Assembly: GCA_003131585.1 (NCBI GenBank)
Contig: PKVW01000037.1
Coordinates: 2,733-66,732, forward strand
Origin: Acidobacteriaceae bacterium
Lineage (GTDB): Bacteria; Acidobacteriota; Terriglobia; Terriglobales; Acidobacteriaceae
Reading direction: 5' to 3'
Length of the DNA stretch: 64,000 nucleotides
Part shown: piece after piece, positions 30,077 to 44,585 of the stretch
Layout: each line of letters starts with the position of its first letter
Position numbering within the stretch: the stretch's first letter is position 1
The notes under the pieces: generated by a model
What the model saw: only the letters and a program-made list of their open reading frames with translations
Told to the model about the DNA's origin: nothing
Database searches by the model: none
Position numbers and translations under genes: made by a program

Positions 30077-31717
30077 TTGCCACTAAACCGGGATGTGCTT
30101 TGGTACAAGGACGCGATCATCTATCAAGTCCACGTCCGCACTTTCCACGACAGCAACGGGGATGGCATCGGTGATTTTCAAGGGCTTGAAGAGAAGCTCG
30201 ACTACCTTCAGGAACTGGGGATCAGCGCGATATGGCTGATGCCATTCTTCCCCTCGCCTCTGCGCGACGATGGCTACGATATCGCGGATTACACCGCCGT
30301 CCATTCAAGCTACGGAACATTGGAGGATTTTCGGAACCTTCTCGGCTCCGCCCACGACCGCGGAATCCGGGTCATCATCGAGATGGTGTTGAATCACACA
30401 TCCGATCAGCACCCCTGGTTTCAAGAGTCGCGAAGTTCGCGGGATAATCCACGCCGCGATTGGTATGTCTGGAGCGAGACCGACACCCGGTACAAAGGAA
30501 CCCGCATCATTTTTCTGGACACAGAAACCTCCAACTGGGCGTGGGACGCCGTTTCGAAATCCTATTATTGGCATCGCTTTTTTAGTCACCAGCCCGATCT
30601 CAACTACGACAACCCTGCCGTTCGGGAACAGATGTGGAATGTGATGAAGTTCTGGCTGGAGATGGGTGTTGACGCCTTCCGGCTCGACGCGGTGCCGTAC
30701 CTGGTGGAACGGGAGGGCACAAATTGTGAGAACTTGCCGGAGACCCACGAAATCCTGAAGGAACTGCGGCGAAGACTCGACGAACAATTTCCCGGCAGGA
30801 TGCTTCTGGCGGAGGCCAATCAGTGGCCCGCGGATCTTCGCCCATATTTTGGCGACGGAGACGAATTCCACATGGCGTTTCACTTTCCGTTGATGCCCAG
30901 AATGTTCATGGGGCTGAAGCTGGAAGACCGCAAGCCCATCACGGAAATTTTGCAGCAGACCCCGGAAATTCCGCCCTCCTGCCAGTGGTCCCTGTTTCTG
31001 CGCAACCATGACGAGCTGACCCTGGAAATGGTAACCGACATGGAACGCGACTACATGTACGACGCGTACGCCGAAAACAAGACGATGCGGCTGAACCTCG
31101 GAATTCGGCGGCGGCTCGCTCCTTTGCTGGACAACGACCGCAGGCGCATCGAGCTGATGAATGGGATGCTGATGTCGCTGCCGGGTACTCCTATCATCTA
31201 TTACGGCGATGAAATCGGAATGGGCGATAACATCAATCTCGGCGACCGCAACGGAGTCAGGACTCCGATGCAGTGGAGCGGGGAATGGAACGGCGGCTTT
31301 TCTACCGCGGACCCGGAGTTCTTGTATGCTCCCCTCATTCAGAATCCGGTGTATGGTTATCCGGCCGTGAACGTCTTGTCGCAAAGAGAAAGCGAACACT
31401 CGCTCCTCTGTTGGATGCGGAGCATCATCACGGTCCGCAGATCGACTGAAGTGTTCGGCCGGGGATCGATTGAGTTTCTCCATCCAGCCAATCACAGAAT
31501 ACTGGCTTATGTACGGCGGCTGGGCGACGAGGCGGTGCTGGTGGTCAATAATCTTTCGAGCACCGCGCAAGCTGCCGAACTGGATCTGCGGCGCTACAAG
31601 GGAAATATTCTGATCGAGATGTTTGGCAAGAATATGTTTCCGCGTGTGGGCGACCTGCCCTATCCGCTAACGATGGGGCCTTACCAGTTTTACTGGTTCC
31701 GGCTGCGGCGAATATAG
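30077..31717 (+). CDS. treS: Trehalose synthase (maltose alpha-D-glucosyltransferase)
   Basis: A 546-residue GH13 enzyme interconverting maltose and trehalose. The N-terminus [41 protein letters not shown] (nucleophile Asp), LLAEANQWP (acid/base Glu) and [12 protein letters not shown] are all as in Tre[15 protein letters not shown] is also typical. It starts at TTG with AGGAGG 7 nt upstream. No maltokinase is fused. With OtsA/OtsB and two MalQ enzymes nearby, the organism can make trehalose from both UDP-glucose and maltodextrins. Confidence 0.93.
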
Positions 31718-31726
31718 CCTAATGTA

Positions 31727-33061
31727 ATGGAAACGATGTCCCATGGCGCATCTTCGCAAGGGCGCGCGGCGGTAACTCGCACGGAGATGAAATTGGCGGA
31801 GGAGACCTTTCTTACGGATGATTTTCTTCGCCAACTGATCAACGTCGGCGAAGTGGACATCCTTGTGGGCTTGCCCACTCACAACAACGCCAAGACTATC
31901 GGGTCGATTGTCCACACCATTCAGAGTGGCATCCTACGCTGGTTTCCCCGGGAGCGAGCCGTCATCATTAACGCCGATGGAGGGTCGCGTGACGGCACTC
32001 CCGAACTGGTCACGGGCGTTTCTATCGATGACGCTCGCCCAGCCTCCAATCTGCACGCGCTGCGCACGCTGCACTCGATAAGCACGAAGTATGCCAGCAG
32101 CCCGGCGAGCGGAGCAGCGTTGCGGACTATTCTGGCTGCCGCCGAACTGCTCCGCGCCAGGGCCTGTGTGGTGATGTCACCCGAGTCCGCGAACATTGAA
32201 CCCGAATGGCTCTCCAAGCTTCTGCATCCCATTTATCGCGACGGCTTCGATCTGGTGACCCCCACCTATCGCAGACGCAAGTTTGAAGGGCTGCTTATAA
32301 CGAATTTGCTGTACCCGATGGTCCGCGCACTTTATGGAGTAAGAATCCGTGAGGCCTACACGCCCGAGTTCGGATTTTCCGGCCGTCTCGGAAGTCAGTT
32401 CCTTGGACAAAATATCTGGAATGATGGGGCCGGCGGGGCCGGCGTCGAACTCCGCTTCTCACTGGCTGCAATCGCGGGAGGATACCGTATCTGCCAGTCG
32501 TTTCTCGGCGAAAAGGATCACATCGAGCGAAGCGCTGCTGACTTCGTGCCGGCGCTGCGACAAACTGTCGGCGTCCTGTTCTCCGCATTAGAGCCAGACT
32601 TTCCGCTTTGGAGCACCGTGGCCGGTTCCCAGCCGGTCCCAACCACCGGAGCCGACCAGGAAGCGCTACTGGAACCAGTGCGGGCAAATCGGAAACGGCT
32701 GCGAGAGATGTTCTCGACCGGAGTTGCGGAATTGGAATCCGTCTTTCAATCGATTCTTTCTCCCTCGACCCTGGCAGAACTCCAGCGAATCGCCCGCCTG
32801 GGAGAAGAGGAGTTCCATTACTCCGCGGAATTGTGGGTCAGGACGGTTTACGAGTTTGCCGCCTCATATCAGAAATCCGTGATCAACCGGGATCACATCA
32901 TCCAGGCTTTAGCCCCGCTTTTTCGCGGGAGAATGTTCACGTTCGTGATGGAGAACCGCAACGCTTCGGCGAACGACGTCGAGAACAATATCGAAGGCTT
33001 ATGCCTTGAGTTCGAGCGATTGAAACCGTATCTGCTGCAAATGTGGAAATCGAGAGAGTGA
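31727..33061 (+). CDS. Family 2-like glycosyltransferase (glucosyl-3-phosphoglycerate synthase-like)
   Basis: A 444-residue cytoplasmic GT-A glycosyltransferase. The nucleotide-sugar fold is seen in DILVGLPTHNNAKTIGSIVH and INADGGSRDGTPELV; EFGFSGRLGSQFLGQNIW and AGVELRFSLAAIAGGYRI follow. It resembles GT81/GT2 enzymes making glucosylglycerate-type solutes, but the product cannot be fixed from sequence. The C-terminal 150 residues are helical and of unknown role. It begins 9 nt after treS and ends 7 nt before the membrane protein, so the three form one operon, fitting a compatible-solute role. Confidence 0.82.
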   Translation: METMSHGASSQGRAAVTRTEMKLAEETFLTDDFLRQLINVGEVDILVGLPTHNNAKTIGSIVHTIQSGILRWFPRERAVIINADGGSRDGTPELVTGVSIDDARPASNLHALRTLHSISTKYASSPASGAALRTILAAAELLRARACVVMSPESANIEPEWLSKLLHPIYRDGFDLVTPTYRRRKFEGLLITNLLYPMVRALYGVRIREAYTPEFGFSGRLGSQFLGQNIWNDGAGGAGVELRFSLAAIAGGYRICQSFLGEKDHIERSAADFVPALRQTVGVLFSALEPDFPLWSTVAGSQPVPTTGADQEALLEPVRANRKRLREMFSTGVAELESVFQSILSPSTLAELQRIARLGEEEFHYSAELWVRTVYEFAASYQKSVINRDHIIQALAPLFRGRMFTFVMENRNASANDVENNIEGLCLEFERLKPYLLQMWKSRE

Positions 33062-33068
33062 GGCAACT

Positions 33069-33773
33069 ATGCGGGAAATGATTGTCAGCGAACTAAGCCA
33101 GGCGTGGCACGAGCTTGCCAGAGGTTTCGCCCACTTCCTTCCTCGTCTCATCGTGATGCTGATCCTTGCACTTGTGGGCTGGGCGATCGCCTACGTTGTA
33201 AAAGTGGTCCTGCGCAGCATTCTGAGGCTCGTCAAGTTCGACAAACTTTCAGAAAACGCGGGCGCTTCTCAACTGCTTACCAAGGCCGCTCTGCCTTCGG
33301 CGACGGAAATGTTGAGCCGGTTCGCCTTCTGGGTGGCCTGGCTCGGCTTCATTCTACTGGGTGTGAGCGTGCTCGGGATCCTGGGCCTGCAGCAGCAAAT
33401 CGCAACATTCTTTCTTTTCCTGCCGCGCCTATTCGTAGCCATGTTCATCATGTTCTTCGGACTGCTGGCAGCCAGCTTCTTCTCGCGTGCCGCTCTTTTG
33501 GCCGCGGTAAATGCGAATGTGCCTTCACCCCGGGTTTTGAGCCTCGCCGTCCGCAGCATCATCATTGTTTTCGTATTGTCGATCGTATTTGAAGAACTGG
33601 GTCTGGCGGAACAGACCATGCTGGTCGCCTTCGGAATTGCCTTCGGAGCCCTGATGCTCGGCCTGGCAATCGCGTTCGGCACGGGAGGCAGAGACTTGGC
33701 GCAGCGTTTCCTGGAGAAGAGGTTTGTTCGCGAAAAGAAGGAGGACAACGAAGACGAACTGTCGCCGCTCTAG
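33069..33773 (+). CDS. Membrane protein with MscS-type TM repeats (small-conductance channel-like)
   Basis: A 234-residue protein with five or six membrane helices, for example LPRLIVMLILALVGWAIAYV, FAFWVAWLGFILLGVSVLGI, LPRLFVAMFIMFFGLLAASF and VAFGIAFGALMLGLAIAFGT. The last reads like the glycine/alanine-rich pore helix, followed by GGRDLAQRFLEKRF. This is the conserved TM-helix family found in MscS-like channels, without the MscS beta domain. Its place behind treS and a solute glycosyltransferase suggests osmotic stress; this is inference. Confidence 0.8.
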   Translation: MREMIVSELSQAWHELARGFAHFLPRLIVMLILALVGWAIAYVVKVVLRSILRLVKFDKLSENAGASQLLTKAALPSATEMLSRFAFWVAWLGFILLGVSVLGILGLQQQIATFFLFLPRLFVAMFIMFFGLLAASFFSRAALLAAVNANVPSPRVLSLAVRSIIIVFVLSIVFEELGLAEQTMLVAFGIAFGALMLGLAIAFGTGGRDLAQRFLEKRFVREKKEDNEDELSPL

Positions 33774-35426: not shown

Positions 35427-35655
35427 GCAAGAGGGTTGCGGTCCACAGAAAAATCCTGTCCCCGGGAAGCGAGCCATCTTGAAATACATGAGCACTGCGA
35501 CAAACCTGCGAGGGGTTAGGCGCACGACATGTACCCGCGTTGCCGCGAGCGAAACGGGAACGCTTCTCGCTGGGAGTCGACAAGCATGATGCCAAAGAGC
35601 CGCCCGTTGCTATAGGATGAAATTTCCTCCCCGCTCCATTTGGGAGGCTTGTGCC

Positions 35656-37950
35656 ATGCGACTGCTTAGCATCCGGCTCATTGTTTCCCTCATCGTGGGC
35701 ATCACGCTGGTCTCGCTCTCATCCTCGTACTATGAGGTATTGGTTGGGAAGCGCGGCCTGCGCCGGGACCTGGAGCGGCGCGCCGAGGTATTGGGCGAAA
35801 GCCTCGCAGGAAACGTGGAACGCGACCTGGAGAAGGATTCGGTGCGGGATTTGCAGCGCATCGTAGAGCACTTCGGGAACCGGGAGCATCTCTCCGGACT
35901 GGCTGTCTACGGCCGGCAGGGCGATTTGCTGGCAGTTACACCGGAGCTGGCATCCACGCTGGCTACCCTTCCCTCCATCGTGTCTCAAGCATTGCGTGAG
36001 AATCATGGAGCGGGCGCGTTTCAACGGGTCGGCGATGCCTCGCTGCACATCTACGCTTTACCTCTTCACCAGCACGACGAAGTCATCGGCGGCCTCGCGA
36101 TTGTGCACGATGCCAGCTATATTCGGGCGGAGAGCCTTCACATTTGGCGCGAAACATTCCTGCGAGTGCTGGTATATGTGTTTCTCATCGTGCTGATCAC
36201 GCTGTTGATCGTCCGCTGGAGTATTGCCGGACCCATCGCACGGACGGCGCAGTGGATACGCGCTTTGCGGACGGGGCGAATCTCTTCACGCCAGTACGTC
36301 CCCGGTCTCGATCTCTTTCGTCCCCTGGTGCGGGAGCTGGCCACCTTCGCCGAAAGCCTCAACCAGGCGCGGTCGGCGGCCGAGACCGAAGCCCGCCTGC
36401 GGGATGCGGGCGAATCTCTGTGGACGGCCGACCGGCTGGCCGCACATGTGCGCACACGCCTGAACCATGGGCGTCTTTTTGTCGTGTCGAATCGCGAGCC
36501 TTACGTGCACATGCGGCATGGCAAATCAGTGGAAGTGATTGTGCCGCCCAGCGGGTTGGTCACTGCGATCGAACCGGTGTTGCGCGCCTGTGACGGAACC
36601 TGGATTGCCCATGGCAACGGCGATGCCGATCTCGAAATGGTGGATGAGCACGACCGGCTGCGGGTACCCCCGGAAGATCCTCGCTACAGCTTGCGCCGGG
36701 TTTGGCTGAGCAAGGAGGAAGAAGAAGGCTATTACTACGGATTTGCCAACGAGGGACTGTGGCCTCTGTGCCATATCGCGCACGCACGCCCCATCTTTCG
36801 CGCGGAGGACTGGAAATACTATCAGGCCGTAAACCTGAAGTTCGCCGCTGCGCTGCTGGAAGAGATAAGGAACGTGGATAAGCCCATTGTCCTGGTGCAG
36901 GATTACCACTTCGCGCTGCTGCCTCGGCTGATTAAGGAAAAAAGACCGGAGGCTCGGGTGGCAATCTTCTGGCACATCCCGTGGCCCAATCCGGAGGCAT
37001 TTGACATCTCCCCGTGGCGGCGCGAACTTGTGGATGGCCTGCTCGGCGCCGATCTGATCGGGTTTCACATCCAGTCGCACTGCAATAACTTCCTGCAGAC
37101 AGTGGACCGGGTAGTGGAATCGCTCGTCGATTGGGAACACTTTTCGGTGAAACGTTTGGATCATCTCACCCTGGTGCGGCCCTTCCCCATCAGCGTGGAC
37201 TTCACAGATGTGCAACGGCCGGAGTCGATGCCGGATTCCTACGTCGAACGTTCCGCCTTGCTCAAGGCCTTGGGGGTGGAGGCTACCTTCATGGGTGTGG
37301 GCGTAGACCGGGTCGACTATACCAAGGGCATTCTGGAGCGTTTTCTGGCCATCGAGCGTTTTCTGGAGAAGTATCCTCCCTATCGCAGCCAGTTTACATT
37401 CGTGCAGATTGGCGCTCCCAGCCGCAGCCATCTCAAACGTTATCACGATCTGATGGCGGAGATCGAAGCGGAAGCCGACCGCATCAATGGGCGGTTCCAG
37501 ACGGACAAATGGAAGCCCATCGTCTTTCTGAACCGGCAGCATAACCACCAGGAGATTCAAGGCTACTACCGCGCCGCAGATCTATGCCTGGTCACGTCGT
37601 TGCACGATGGCATGAACCTGGTGGCGAAAGAATTCGTGGCAGCCCGGCACGACGAAAGGGGTGTTTTGATCCTGAGTTGTTTCACCGGGGCCGCCCGCGA
37701 GTTGCGCGATGCCTTGCAGGTGAACCCCTACGATATCGACCAGACGGCCGAGGCGATTCGTTTCGCTCTTGAAATGGATCCGGAGGAAAAGGAATCGCGT
37801 ATGCGGCGCATGCGGAAGACGGTGAGGGAACACAATGTTTACCGCTGGGCAGGCAGCCTCATCGCGGAGCTTTGTGAGCTGCGCCTGGACGCGTCGGACG
37901 AAGGCAAGGAGAAGGAGAAGGTCCGGGCGAGTGCGGTTGCCTGGGAATAA
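35656..37950 (+). CDS. otsA: Trehalose-6-phosphate synthase with membrane sensor-HAMP N-terminus
   Basis: A 764-residue fusion. Residues 5-25 are a membrane helix; about 30-165 is a likely periplasmic sensor domain ([40 protein letters not shown]); about 168-190 is a second helix; 190-245 is HAMP-like; from about 270 to 745 is a full GT20 domain. GT20 marks: [56 protein letters not shown] (Arg and Lys for UDP-glucose) and [16 protein letters not shown] (Asp and Glu). It makes trehalose-6-phosphate from UDP-glucose and glucose-6-phosphate. ATG 35656 has GGGAGG 9 nt upstream. otsB follows after 11 nt. Sensor-type control of the enzyme is inferred. Confidence 0.92.
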
Positions 37951-37961
37951 GGAGTGTGTGG

Positions 37962-38789
37962 TTGTCCGGCGCGGTCAATCTAATCGCAGTCGAGCAGTTC
38001 ATGAACGCGGTGGCACAGTCGCCGGGTTCCTCGCTTCTGCTCGATTATGACGGCACTCTCGCGCCATTCTGCCTCAATCGCCAGCAGGCTTTCCCCTATC
38101 CGGGAATGAGCGCGCTCCTACAGGAAATCGTCGATCACGGCCGCACCCGCGTGGTCATCATCACCGGCCGCAGCGCCCAGGAAGTGATCCCGCTGCTCGC
38201 GGTTCACCCCCGCCCCGAGATCTGGGGATGCCATGGGTTGGAGCGGTTGAGACCGGACGGAACCTGCGAGAGACCCCGCATGGAAGAGCCGGTACTGCAG
38301 GCGCTGGCCGACGCAGATCGTTGGCTACGGCATCAGGGGCTGCGCAACCGGGCTGAGTTCAAGACCGGCGCCGTCGCCATCCATTGGCGCGGGCTGGAGG
38401 AACCCGCGGCGGCGGAAACTCGCGGCCAGGTTTTGCGCGGTTGGTTTCCCATTGCTCAAAGCGCGCCTATGGAACTGCTGGAGTTCGATGGCGGTATTGA
38501 AATGCGCATGCCCGGTCTTGATAAAGGGGATGCGGTCCGCACCATTCTGGATGAAATCGGCCCGGAGGTTCCTGTCGCCTACCTGGGGGATGACTTGACC
38601 GACGAGCGGGCCTTCCTCGCTCTTGGCGCCGCAGGCTTGAGCGTGCTGGTTCGCCCCGAATGGCGCACAACCGCGGCCGCCCTGTGGATCAGGCCGCCAG
38701 AGGGTCTGCGGGAGTTTCTGACACGGTGGCTGCAAGCTTGTCGTCAGGGGCAACATCGCGCGGGGACAGAGTCTTCTGGTCCTGCATGA
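37962..38789 (+). CDS. otsB: Trehalose-6-phosphate phosphatase
   Basis: A 275-residue HAD-superfamily phosphatase finishing trehalose synthesis. Motif I is LLLDYDGTLAPF (nucleophile Asp), motif II ITGRSAQEV, the cap region includes HGLERLRPDG, and motif IV is YLGDDLTDERAF. The start chosen is TTG 37962, 7 nt after AGGAG; GTG 37956 is too close to that box. It is cotranscribed with otsA. The C-terminal 15 residues are not conserved. Confidence 0.92.
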   Translation: MSGAVNLIAVEQFMNAVAQSPGSSLLLDYDGTLAPFCLNRQQAFPYPGMSALLQEIVDHGRTRVVIITGRSAQEVIPLLAVHPRPEIWGCHGLERLRPDGTCERPRMEEPVLQALADADRWLRHQGLRNRAEFKTGAVAIHWRGLEEPAAAETRGQVLRGWFPIAQSAPMELLEFDGGIEMRMPGLDKGDAVRTILDEIGPEVPVAYLGDDLTDERAFLALGAAGLSVLVRPEWRTTAAALWIRPPEGLREFLTRWLQACRQGQHRAGTESSGPA

Positions 38790-39531: not shown

Positions 39532-39739
39532 TGGACATCCGTCCTGTCCAGCGTTGTACACGGGCGGAACGCCGGCGCCTTCTCATGCCATCTTTTCTGC
39601 CGTGCCGTGCGAGCGAGATGAATAGCCCGGTTGGTGCTGTTATCAGCAATTGTTCGCCAATCCAAGACCGGACTGACGGTGACTTTGACATGCGACGTAT
39701 GATGGTTGGGCGGGATTGGATTTAGAAGAGGATCAATGT

Positions 39740-40417
39740 ATGACAGCACTGAAACTCCTTGTCGTGGAAGATGACCTCGCAAGCCTGGAATTGATGACCG
39801 AGGTTTTCATCTCTTTAAAAGCCGAGGTGCGTCCGGTTAGCGACAGCGAGAAGGCGGTCGGCATGGTCAACGAGGAGAAGTTTGACGGAATTTTCCTGGA
39901 CCTGGAAATGCCCAACCTGAACGGCTTCGACCTTGCCCGCCTTATCCGTAAGTCGTCTTGGAATAAATCTACCCCAATTATCATCGTGACCGGGCGCGAG
40001 GAGAGAGACACCATGCAACAGACATTTTCCCTCGGAGCAACTTTCTTTCTTCAGAAGCCTGTGGACAGACAAAAGCTAAGTGTTTTATTCCGGACCGTGA
40101 GCGGTGGGATGTTGGAGAATCGACGCAGATATACCCGCGTTCCACTACAGACAGACGTGATTTGTACTGTGGGTCCTCGAACCATCCGCGGGATGACCTG
40201 GAACCTCAGCCACGGCGGGATGCAGGTGGAAGTTGGTGGCTTGCAGCTGAAGGATAAGGTGCGACTGTCATTCCGGTTACCGGTTTCAGGCGTGTCGTTG
40301 GAGGCAGCCGGGACAGTGATCTGGACAAAAGAGGATCGGCAAGGTATCCAGTTCACCAACGTGAGCACACAAAATGAGCAGTCGATCCGAAAATTCATCG
40401 CCGAAGTAGAAAAATAA
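39740..40417 (+). CDS. Response regulator with PilZ (c-di-GMP-binding) domain
   Basis: A 225-residue protein. Residues 1-120 are a receiver domain with acidic pocket VVEDD, phosphorylation site in GIFLDLEMPNLNGF, the Thr in IIIVTGR and the Lys in LQKPVD. Residues about 128-225 are a PilZ domain: RRRYTRVPLQTD has the RxxxR motif and NLSHGGMQ the (N/D)xSxxG motif. It would thus join phosphorelay and c-di-GMP signals. It lies opposite the CheY/kinase operon, 41 nt from its end, so the two converge. Confidence 0.9.
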   Translation: MTALKLLVVEDDLASLELMTEVFISLKAEVRPVSDSEKAVGMVNEEKFDGIFLDLEMPNLNGFDLARLIRKSSWNKSTPIIIVTGREERDTMQQTFSLGATFFLQKPVDRQKLSVLFRTVSGGMLENRRRYTRVPLQTDVICTVGPRTIRGMTWNLSHGGMQVEVGGLQLKDKVRLSFRLPVSGVSLEAAGTVIWTKEDRQGIQFTNVSTQNEQSIRKFIAEVEK

Positions 40418-40458: not shown

Positions 40459-40905
40459 CTATTTGCCAGTGCCTGCTGCCCGCGTCTTCCCGCTTGCCTG
40501 GCCCTCGTGCAATTGATTCGGAGGGGCATGTCGATCCTCTCGTTTACTCAACAGGCGTTCGAGCTCTTCGGCGAGGGCGCATGCATTCACCGGCTTCGAC
40601 AGGTAGCCATCAAACTTTGAATTCAAGATCTTTTCCCGGTCTTCCTGCATGGCGTACGCAGTAACCGCTACTACAGGCAGTGAGGCGAAGCGAGGATTTT
40701 CGCGGATCTTGCGTACGACTGCAAAGCCGTCCAGCACCGGCATGCCGATGTCAAGCAGCAGTATGTCCGGTTGAGTCTGTTCAATCATGCGAAGCGCTTC
40801 TTCGCCGTCACACGCCTCCACCACTGTGTATCCACCCATCTCAAGCAACTCGCGGAGCAGTTCCCGGTTAACCGCATTGTCTTCGGCAATTAGGACTTTG
40901 GTCAT
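40459..40905 (-). CDS. CheY-like single-domain response regulator
   Basis: A 148-residue receiver: [20 protein letters not shown], phosphorylation Asp in [22 protein letters not shown] and the Lys in YLSKPVN. A charged 25-residue tail carries no known output. The ATG overlaps the stop of the large hybrid kinase (ATGA), so it is its likely last relay partner. The start AEDNxVNRxLL is typical of receivers attached to or paired with hybrid kinases. Confidence 0.92.
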
Positions 40906-43900
40906 AGCTGCCCCGCAGATTTTGCCCGCGTGCGGCCTCGAACTACTCTTCCAACCTCGACAATGAGCTGCTGCTGCCAGACACCACTCTTGATGTAGAG
41001 ACCCTGTGTTGTCTGGCGGAGAGTGGCGATTTCTTCGGAACTGAGATCCTTTCCCGTCATGACCAAAACAGGGAGAGTTTGTAGAGTTTCTTGTTCCCGT
41101 ATGTGACGAATGAGCTCAAAACCGTCCATGCCTGGCATCAGTAGATCGAGCAAGACTGCACTCACCAGTTTGGAAGAGAGCACTTCCAGAGCTCTCGCTC
41201 CGCTTCGCACGCTCTGCGTCTCGTATCCGGCCGACCGCAGAGTCGCTTCCAATAACTCCAGAGTCCTGGGATCATCGTCGACGAGCAAAAGAGCCGCATC
41301 ATCGTCAGCGTGAGGCAGTACATGCTTGCGAACACTTTCCAGAAGTTTCGGCTTGGGAATCGGCTTGATGAGGTAATCGGCGGCGCCCAAAGCATAGCCC
41401 ACCTGTTGTTGATCCTCGACTGAAACGATAATGATCGGGAGGTTTGCCGTCTCCGGTGTTTGTTTCAGTGCTACTAGCGTTTCAAAACCATTTCTGCCTG
41501 GCATCAGTAGATCCAGGGTGATCCCATCTGGACGTAGTTGTTGAGCTTTCTGGAGGGCTTCGGCTCCCGACTCGGCCATGACAATCTGATATTCCGATTC
41601 CAGGTAGCTGGCTAAAAGCTCGCGGGAAGCGACCTCGTCGTCTACCACTATAATCAGTGGTTTCTCGCGACTTACGCTCAGCGTGATGGAAGGATTCACG
41701 GTCTCTATAACTGGGAGAATATTTGAGGACGTTCTGGATCCTATGGGCAGGGTAAAAGTAAATCGGCTGCCTTTCCCCGGTTCGCTTTCCAGTGAGATTT
41801 TTCCGCCTTGTTGTTCGACGAGACGCTTCGTGATCGCTAGTCCCAATCCCGTGCCTTCATTGGCGGTATTTGTGTTTCCCTCAACCTGCCGGAATTCCTC
41901 GAAAACCACCGCCTGGTCCTCAGCTCGAATACCTATCCCTGTATCGGTTACCGATATACAAACCTCGTTTCCCTTTTCAACGCAATCGATGTCGATTCGG
42001 CCCCCCTTCGGCGTGAACTTGACCGCATTGCTCAGCAGGTTGTAGAGGATTTGCTTGAAACGAACTCGATCAGCATAGACGGCCCGACCCGCCTCCAGCT
42101 TATGGTGAACCTGGATATTTTTTGCCATCGCCAGGGGACGGATGGTGGAGAGGACCTCCGGCAAAGCATCCTTGACCTGGAAGTCTTCGCACCGGAGTTC
42201 GAGTTGCCCGGCTTCGATTTTCGAGAGATCCAGAATGTCATTGATTAACTGCAGTAGGTGGGCCGAACCCTGTTTGATGTGATTAACGAAGCGTTTCTGC
42301 TTGGCGTTCAGTGCGCCTGGAGTTTCGTCGGCCAGGAGATCTGAAAAACCCACAATCGCATTCAGTGGGGTCCGTAGTTCATGGCTCATGCTGGCCAGAA
42401 ACTTGCTTTTCAGCTGGGTGGCGCGTTCTACCTCGCGGTTGCGAAGATCGAGTTCTTGATTGGAAGCAGCCAAGCGGTCCATGAATTTGCGCTTTTCTGC
42501 TTCGTCCTGCTTTCTCTGCGTAACGTCGACCGCAACAACAACTTCCGCTTTTCGGCCCGCAAAGTTTAGAACGTACGAGGTGATCTCTACGTCGATGACG
42601 GCTCCGTTTTTTCGTCGATGCCGCCAGATGCCAGCGCTCTCATTTTCGTCTCGGTTGGCGCTCACACTTTCGAGCAGGCCGGGAACATTCTCCGGCGGAC
42701 GAATGTCTTTGATGGTCATGGCCAGGAATTCGTCGCTGGAATAGCCATACTTGCGGACTGCGGCGGCGTTTACCGCAAGAAATCGCAGTGTCTCCCGGTC
42801 AAAGACCCAGGTCGGATGCGGATTGTTGTCGAACAATTTGCGGTGCCGCTCTTCGCTCTGCTGGAGCAACTCTTCGGCCCGCTTGCGCTGGGTCACGTCG
42901 GTGACCACGCCCGTCATCCGAATGGGCTGGCCCTGCTGATTGCGGAAGACCTCTCCTTTAGCGGAAATCCATCGCATAGCTTGGTCCGCTCGAATGATTC
43001 GGCATTCGAACTCAAGGTGGCCGGTCCGAAATGCCTCCTCAAATCGCTGTTTCACAAGCTCGCGGTCCTCGGGAACCACGTGGCGGAAGAAAACTTCGTT
43101 GCCCCAATTGGGAAGAAGGCATTCGTAGCCAAAAATCCGGTCGTGCTGGAGTGAGCGCCATGCCTGGTCGGCAATCAAGTCCAGATCCCAAACACCCACT
43201 TCGCCGGAGGTAGAGGCGAGAGTAAGCCTCTGTTCGCTCTCCCGCTGCGTCTCCTCCAGATGTTTCCGCTCGGTGATGTCGGTGCGGATAGTCACGTACT
43301 GGCGCAGTTTTCCATCCGCTCCCACGAACGGGACGATGGTGGTATCTAACCAGTAAATCGAACCATCCTTGGCCCGGTTTTTAACCTCGCCGCGCCAAAC
43401 CTTCCCCTTCGCGATGGTATGGTACATCTGCTGGAAAAACTCTTTTGGATGGTGGCCGGAGCTGAGGATGCGGTGATCCTGGCCGATCAGTTCGTCCTTG
43501 GAATACTGGCTGATGGCGCAGAACTTATCGTTGGCGTAAGTAATGGTGCCTTGGGCGTCGGCCACCGCCACGATGGCGTGTTGATCCAGAGCGAACTTTT
43601 GATCGTCCAGCTCTTTGAGCGCAGCCCGGCTGGTGGCGAGGCTTTCTTTTAAGGCCTCTTCGGCCCGCTTGCGCTCGGTGATGTCGTGCGCCACGGCATA
43701 GATAACTCTTCGCTCGGGCACGGAAACAGCATTCCACAACAGCCATTTGTAAGAACCGTCTTTGCGTAGATAGCGGTTTTCAAAGTAAAGATCGGCCTCT
43801 CCGTTCTTCAGCCGCCCAATTTCGGCTACGGTCGCCTGGCGATCGTCCGGATGTATGAATTCCACGTAGGGCTTCTGCAAGAGTTCTTCCGTGGTAAAGC

Positions 43901-44585
43901 CCAGGATCCTATGCCAGGAGGGGTTCAAGTTCTTGAAGAACCCATCGAACCCAGCGACACAAAACATGTCGACTGATAGATCCATGAAACGATTGCCGGT
44001 TTCCAGCTTGGAATAGAGTGAACCCATGAAACCGTTGATCACAAGGCCGACAACCAGGGCGACCAGCAAGGAGACAAACAATACTGCAACCACGATTAGA
44101 GCGTAGCTCCTCAGCCGGTCGTTCATCGCTTCTAAGTCGGAGCGGATGTACACGGTTCCCGTTGGTTTGCCCTGGAAAATGACCGAGCGCGCCATCCCCA
44201 GATGTGTGTCTTTGAACCAATTGCTCTGGATTTGACCGGTAGGGATAATGGGCAGTGCCATGGTCTCGCCCGCGCGATCACGCCAGTATCCTGCGAACGG
44301 CTGGCCGTCGCGCGTGTAAATCTGGGCGTACACAAGGTTGGGGTTGGCCCGCAATGCTGATAATGTCTTCTCCGCGGAGTGCGGATCGTTGAACAGCAGC
44401 GCAGAGACGGTATTGTCTCCAATGATCTGGGCTTGGATGGAGACATTGCGTACGAGGGCCATGCGAAAGCTGTACAGGTCGTAGGCGCAAAAGCCACCAC
44501 TCGCTAGAAGCAAGGCCACAGCACTCACCAGCACGTTCATCAAGGTGAGTTTCCTGGAGATCGAATATTGCTGGTTTCTGGGCAT
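40902..44585 (-). CDS. Hybrid histidine kinase: CHASE8, four PAS, HisKA/HATPase, two receivers
   Basis: A 1227-residue membrane kinase. The N-terminal helix is at about 12-33, then a periplasmic CHASE8-like domain ([40 protein letters not shown]), a second helix near 160-185, and four PAS/PAC units with DITERK/DVTQRK ends. Then His[20 protein letters not shown] (phospho-His), HATPase N, G1 and G2 boxes ([26 protein letters not shown]), and two receivers with LDLLMPG Asp sites. It starts 6 nt after yfiR ends. CHASE8 is the sensor of YfiN, which the periplasmic YfiR controls; here the output is a kinase. Confidence 0.9.

Follow-up and report, generated by a model that had tools for sequence, protein, structure and literature searches.

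A membrane sensor and divergent HAMP-like segment fused to a trehalose-6-phosphate synthase-like GT20 domain in an Acidobacteriaceae bacterium

The locus described here raises the question of whether a transmembrane sensor module of the kind found in histidine kinases may act directly on a metabolic enzyme. The outputs of HAMP domains are as a rule signalling domains, namely kinases, cyclases, diguanylate cyclases, chemoreceptors and phosphatases. In the window, a stretch of 64,000 nucleotides from an Acidobacteriaceae bacterium (contig PKVW01000037.1), a first-pass annotation had instead read a GT20 glycosyltransferase fused to a membrane sensor module. This architecture is real and conserved, being encoded by a single open reading frame (ORF) with full-length homologs, and the sequence reads as a sensor and a synthase wired together in one protein.

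Architecture and origin of the N-terminal module

The features of the fused gene and its neighbours are listed in Table 1. The start of the ORF was set at 35656, rather than at an alternative in-frame ATG upstream at 35617, because the homologs begin with MRLLS. No promoter was found close to the gene by a scan that is uninformative for this phylum, and no second match to the fused protein was found in a search of the window genome, an assembly of 75 contigs. The expectation of two helices framing a probable periplasmic sensor of about 135 residues was borne out by hydropathy, which places helices near residues 3-24 and 163-187 with approximately 136 residues enclosed between the two transmembrane (TM) segments.

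Table 1. Features of the fused gene and of the adjoining trehalose and osmoprotection genes, in window coordinates
Feature	Position	Strand	Evidence
Sensor-HAMP-GT20 fusion CDS, 764 aa	35656..37950	+	ORF, Pfam, full-length homologs
TM1, residues 3-24	35662..35727	+	Hydropathy; predicted helix 2-59 (AlphaFold)
Periplasmic sensor, sCache/PDC-like, WalK type, residues 25-160	35728..36135	+	PDB profile search, Foldseek, VIA
TM2, residues 161-187	36136..36216	+	Hydropathy (helix near 163-187), AlphaFold
Divergent HAMP-like segment, residues 188-236: helix, connector 207-218, helix	36217..36363	+	Profile-profile, AlphaFold, kinase BLASTP
Linker/signalling helix and junction, residues 237-272	36364..36471	+	Conservation
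GT20 catalytic domain, residues 273-739, trehalose-6-phosphate synthase-like	36472..37872	+	Pfam, PDB relatives, fold, catalytic residues
Trehalose-phosphatase (OtsB-like)	37956..38789	+	PF02358 5.8e-17; TIGR00685 75.9 bits, cut-off 68.05
Small MscS-type transmembrane protein	33069..33773	+	PF05552 3.9e-10; recurs upstream of fused gene in relatives
GT2/mannosylglycerate-synthase-like, probable compatible-solute gene	31727..33061	+	Weak GT2
TreS-like maltose alpha-D-glucosyltransferase	30077..31717	+	TIGR02456 917 bits, cut-off 678

Both sequence profile and structure comparison identify the sensor as WalK-like, with an sCache/PDC fold. A profile of residues 1-275 retrieved the WalK/YycG extracellular domain from the PDB (5is1, E = 1.9e-6), the sensor matched 4ywz (Foldseek 2.1e-7; VIA-align Z 15.2, rmsd 2.4 over 136 residues), and the AlphaFold model matched WalK 9a5d, itself an integrative model, with a Z of 16.6 over residues 1-258. 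The closest periplasmic Pfam families, each taken from the best member among 45 homologs, are sCache_3_2 (7.3e-6), SMP_2 (9.3e-5) and CHASE8 (0.0068). When the phylum was searched with the whole protein, some matches covered residues 4-266 alone; two of these, L169 and L171, were read in detail and proved to be ordinary histidine kinases that carry HisKA, HATPase_c and a HAMP domain above the Pfam cut-off. They align by BLASTP with residues 4-263 (L169, E = 3e-16) and 54-265 (L171, E = 7e-13) of the window protein, both being single-comparison E-values. This homology implies that the module is a kinase-type sensor-TM-HAMP unit set on a glycosyltransferase, direct homologs of which are carried by kinases of the same phylum. 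The TM1-sCache-TM2-HAMP layout and the N-terminal fold of 258 residues are the same as in WalK/YycG-type histidine kinases, from which the window protein differs in having a biosynthetic glycosyltransferase as its output, in lacking the kinase domains and in having a HAMP-like segment devoid of the DExG motif.

The claim of a HAMP domain after TM2 is sustained in part: a HAMP-like hit is obtained by profile-profile comparison and through kinase homology, but not with Pfam on the window protein, and where the second helix starts the family has DLFxPL in place of the DExG motif. At E < 1, Pfam HAMP (PF00672) has no match on the window protein and matches three of the 45 homologs, the best (E 0.011) missing the cut-off, while NCBIfam histidine-kinase models span TM2 and the HAMP-like segment weakly (MtrB E 0.0019, residues 159-238). 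In view of the Pfam result on the window protein, the family profile was compared, with shuffled columns as a control, to a reference profile of 35 Pfam-found HAMP domains from genomes of the same class. Family columns 186-240 aligned with 48 of its approximately 52 positions (probability 84%, E 7.6e-6); the score of 27.5 was equalled by none of 200 column shuffles (mean 9.3, maximum 18.7), and the reversed profile scored 11.2. Control columns from the sensor (25-160) and the linker (240-275) gave no match to the HAMP profile. P193 (93% conserved) and G207 (89%) sit in HAMP register, the segment aligns in register with the kinase HAMPs in BLASTP, and the AlphaFold single-chain model has the helix-connector-helix topology of a HAMP domain immediately after the TM helix (helix 154-206, a connector of 12 residues at 207-218, helix 219-253). 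On the profile-profile match, the predicted topology and the kinase homology, segment 188-236 is divergent and HAMP-derived.

Conservation of the fusion and the role of the membrane module

A survey for the same fusion elsewhere, as the first-pass annotation had proposed, found a full-length fused match in about 74 of 200 genomes sampled from the class, and in several phyla. Relatives are encoded by 178 matching stretches of public genomes, 80 of which were kept, from Acidobacteriota, Elusimicrobiota, Ignavibacteriota/Bacteroidota, Nitrospirota and delta-proteobacterial lineages. In a maximum-likelihood tree of 58 GT20 domains, the 44 sensor-fused sequences, drawn from several phyla, form one clade (support 100/95), within which the window-type fusions are monophyletic (100/97); the order and register of sensor, TM2 and HAMP are constant across phyla, and the fusion is deeply conserved. 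A second sensor-fused subfamily (L111-L117, L181, L182) has a shorter HAMP-like stretch without the proline. Unfused relatives (L118-L120, L183, L184) fall just outside the sensor-fused clade, and the existence of such close relatives implies that the module is dispensable for catalysis.

The fused protein is under purifying selection. Overall dN/dS is 0.12-0.32 in the sensor, 0.08-0.22 in the linker and 0.06-0.15 in GT20, the corresponding ranges against relatives 85-91% identical being 0.14-0.32, 0.08-0.22 and 0.11-0.15. Values for the HAMP-like segment are noisy (0.05-0.79), at 0.36-0.79 against these relatives and 0.05-0.22 against more distant ones. The 45 homologs comprise the window protein and others 52-76% identical to it. 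Conservation is lowest in the sensor, with a mean majority frequency of 0.53 compared to 0.78 in GT20. Seven linker residues (A238, A242, A246, R249, W256, T257 and L261) are invariant, and conservation across residues 219-256 tracks one face of a helix with a period of 100 degrees.

The reading preferred here, at a probability of roughly 0.56, is that the protein is a membrane-bound sensor-synthase, which adjusts trehalose-6-phosphate synthesis to an extracytoplasmic signal. The WalK-like sCache domain between the two TM helices would detect an extracytoplasmic cue, likely to be envelope, osmotic or desiccation-related. The HAMP-derived helix-loop-helix, through which a dimer would be coupled, and the conserved helix of the linker would then pass a conformational change to GT20, altering the rate at which UDP-glucose and glucose-6-phosphate are converted to trehalose-6-phosphate, from which the product of the adjacent phosphatase gene would yield trehalose.

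Alternatively, the N-terminal module may be an anchor only, holding the synthase at the inner membrane near its partners with no signal being passed. A HAMP-like segment that lacks DExG, falls below the Pfam cut-off and is shortened in one subfamily would be in keeping with such a role. However, a bare anchor needs no sensor of 136 residues maintained by purifying selection, and neither the seven invariant linker residues, most of them on one helix face, nor the retention of sensor-TM2-HAMP order and register across phyla would be expected of it. Hence anchoring without signalling is regarded as possible but rather doubtful.

A second type of membrane fusion bears on both readings. Sampling of 297 genomes from the phylum turned up 8 in which a single ORF encodes a Na_H_Exchanger domain (PF00999) followed by a GT20 domain that belongs to the clade described above. 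The arrangement was checked with Pfam in five sequences of the tree set (L174-L178; for instance L175:1086-3842), and L204 is a further case. The five exchanger-GT20 sequences in the tree, from other Acidobacteriota, form a clade of their own (100/99). They share with the window protein both its GT20 clade and fusion to a membrane domain, but carry an ion exchanger where it has a sensor and HAMP-like segment, and the exchanger fusion is independent of the sensor fusion. Membrane or ion input thus recurs as a theme within this GT20 clade. The second fusion speaks, if weakly, for input control rather than chance fusion; it fits anchoring as well, since the membrane domain of the sibling fusion is quite different, such that membrane attachment may itself be the selected trait. 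Extended to the clade, the sensor-synthase reading would be that membrane inputs have been joined to a trehalose-6-phosphate synthase lineage on at least two independent occasions, one input being a kinase-derived sCache-HAMP module and the other a Na+/H+ exchanger, and that an extracytoplasmic or ionic signal would control osmolyte synthesis allosterically, without phosphorelay, second messenger or transcription. This broader proposal is tentative, its chances being put at slightly worse than even.

A further exchanger-containing ORF, of 1451 aa (L203:2294-6649), has its Na_H_Exchanger domain at the N-terminus and, close to the C-terminus, weak matches of AAA ATPase type; another antiporter-like ORF precedes it.

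Product of the GT20 domain and genomic setting

The Pfam Glyco_transf_20 model matches residues 273-739 almost end to end (profile 2-471 of 473, E = 5.8e-123, 411.5 bits, above the cut-off). In the literature numbering of E. coli OtsA, which is the sequence index minus 1, the counterparts of R9, Y76, W85, D130 and H154 are R280, Y360, W369, D416 and H440, and those of R262, K267, R300, D361 and E369 are R552, K557, R590, D651 and E659. All ten of these catalytic or binding residues are invariant across the 45 homologs, in agreement with the original reading of a complete GT20 domain with its UDP-glucose and glucose-6-phosphate contacts, which held at every residue checked. The full GT20 fold is common to this domain and to the trehalose-6-phosphate synthases of Mycobacterium thermoresistibile (5jij) and E. 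coli (1uqt), with Foldseek E-values against OtsA structures down to 4e-36 and a target-normalised TM-score of about 0.88. As in otsBA, a phosphatase gene is adjacent, beginning 5 bases past the synthase stop and encoding the motifs DYDGT and GDDLTDE. By contrast, OtsA is soluble and without a sensor, and the window GT20 domain, about 37% identical to the closest solved enzyme, belongs to a separate deep clade.

The OtsA equivalog model (TIGR02400) scores 434.9 bits, below its cut-off of 564.85, for which reason the domain is named trehalose-6-phosphate synthase-like. Also below their cut-offs are the glucosylglycerol-phosphate synthase model (TIGR02398, 311.4 bits against 569) and the model for PRK14501-type bifunctional GT20-HAD proteins (495.5 bits against 634). 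The last of these scores is nevertheless a good one, and PRK14501-type synthase/phosphatases pair the same two activities; in the window the phosphatase is encoded by its own gene, and the fusion partner of the synthase is a membrane sensor. Weighing the conserved contacts and the adjacent phosphatase gene alongside the missed OtsA cut-off, glucose-6-phosphate is the probable acceptor.

The GT20 domain might instead make another glucosyl phosphate, such as glucosylglycerol phosphate, in which case the sensor would be fused to an enzyme for some other compatible solute. Failure to reach either the OtsA or the glucosylglycerol-phosphate synthase cut-off would permit this, as would the mannosylglycerate-synthase-like gene nearby. 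Nevertheless, the OtsA model scores far above the glucosylglycerol-phosphate model, every checked glucose-6-phosphate contact is invariant, the adjoining trehalose-6-phosphate phosphatase (TPP) gene exceeds its own cut-off, and TPP, TreS and TreT are repeatedly found nearby, all of which makes a different product improbable.

That a chance ORF or an assembly artefact joined two genes is refuted, despite the 75 contigs of the window genome, by independent copies: the full-length ORF occurs without stop or frameshift in dozens of independent contigs from many species, and in a complete genome (L087, CP085323).

The setting of the fused gene is one of osmoprotection, an operon context defined by TPP, TreS, MscS-type, TreT and antiporter neighbours. 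The phosphatase and MscS-type genes adjoin it in other phyla too; on a Stygiobacter contig (L102) an MscS channel gene lies upstream of the fused gene, and on an Elusimicrobia contig (L084) a Na+/H+ antiporter gene ends just ahead of it. The protein encoded at 31727-33061 is barely classifiable, while its counterpart in L076 (39% identical) matches PF21969 (2.5e-7); the linkage of this gene to the MscS-type and trehalose genes persists in distant relatives (L076, L120). DUF5752 (PF19027) and TreT are found downstream of the fused gene at L042:6408-8510, and similarly in L039, L045, L049, L062, L094, L102 and L108, and the position of DUF5752 beside TreT and the fused gene suggests a role in trehalose metabolism. 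Downstream of the trehalose genes in the window itself are a receiver-PilZ protein (39716-40417, by Pfam) and a large multi-domain hybrid histidine kinase (40902-44585, from a reading of the sequence).

Significance of a membrane-fused synthase

The enzyme and the type of sensor are both known; of their combination, as of the exchanger fusion to GT20, no account was found in the open literature. It is possible that databases already list it as a domain architecture, and GSU2337 is given in a genome paper as 'containing' a trehalose-6-phosphate synthase domain (PMC2700814). If the sensor-synthase reading is true, a HAMP-derived relay into a biosynthetic enzyme would constitute a direct circuit from input to metabolite, and would make transmembrane HAMP signalling measurable as an enzyme activity. 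It would likewise give a direct answer to how water stress is coupled to trehalose synthesis in widespread soil bacteria, in that a soil acidobacterial cell may tune the synthesis of this stress sugar straight from a signal outside its membrane.
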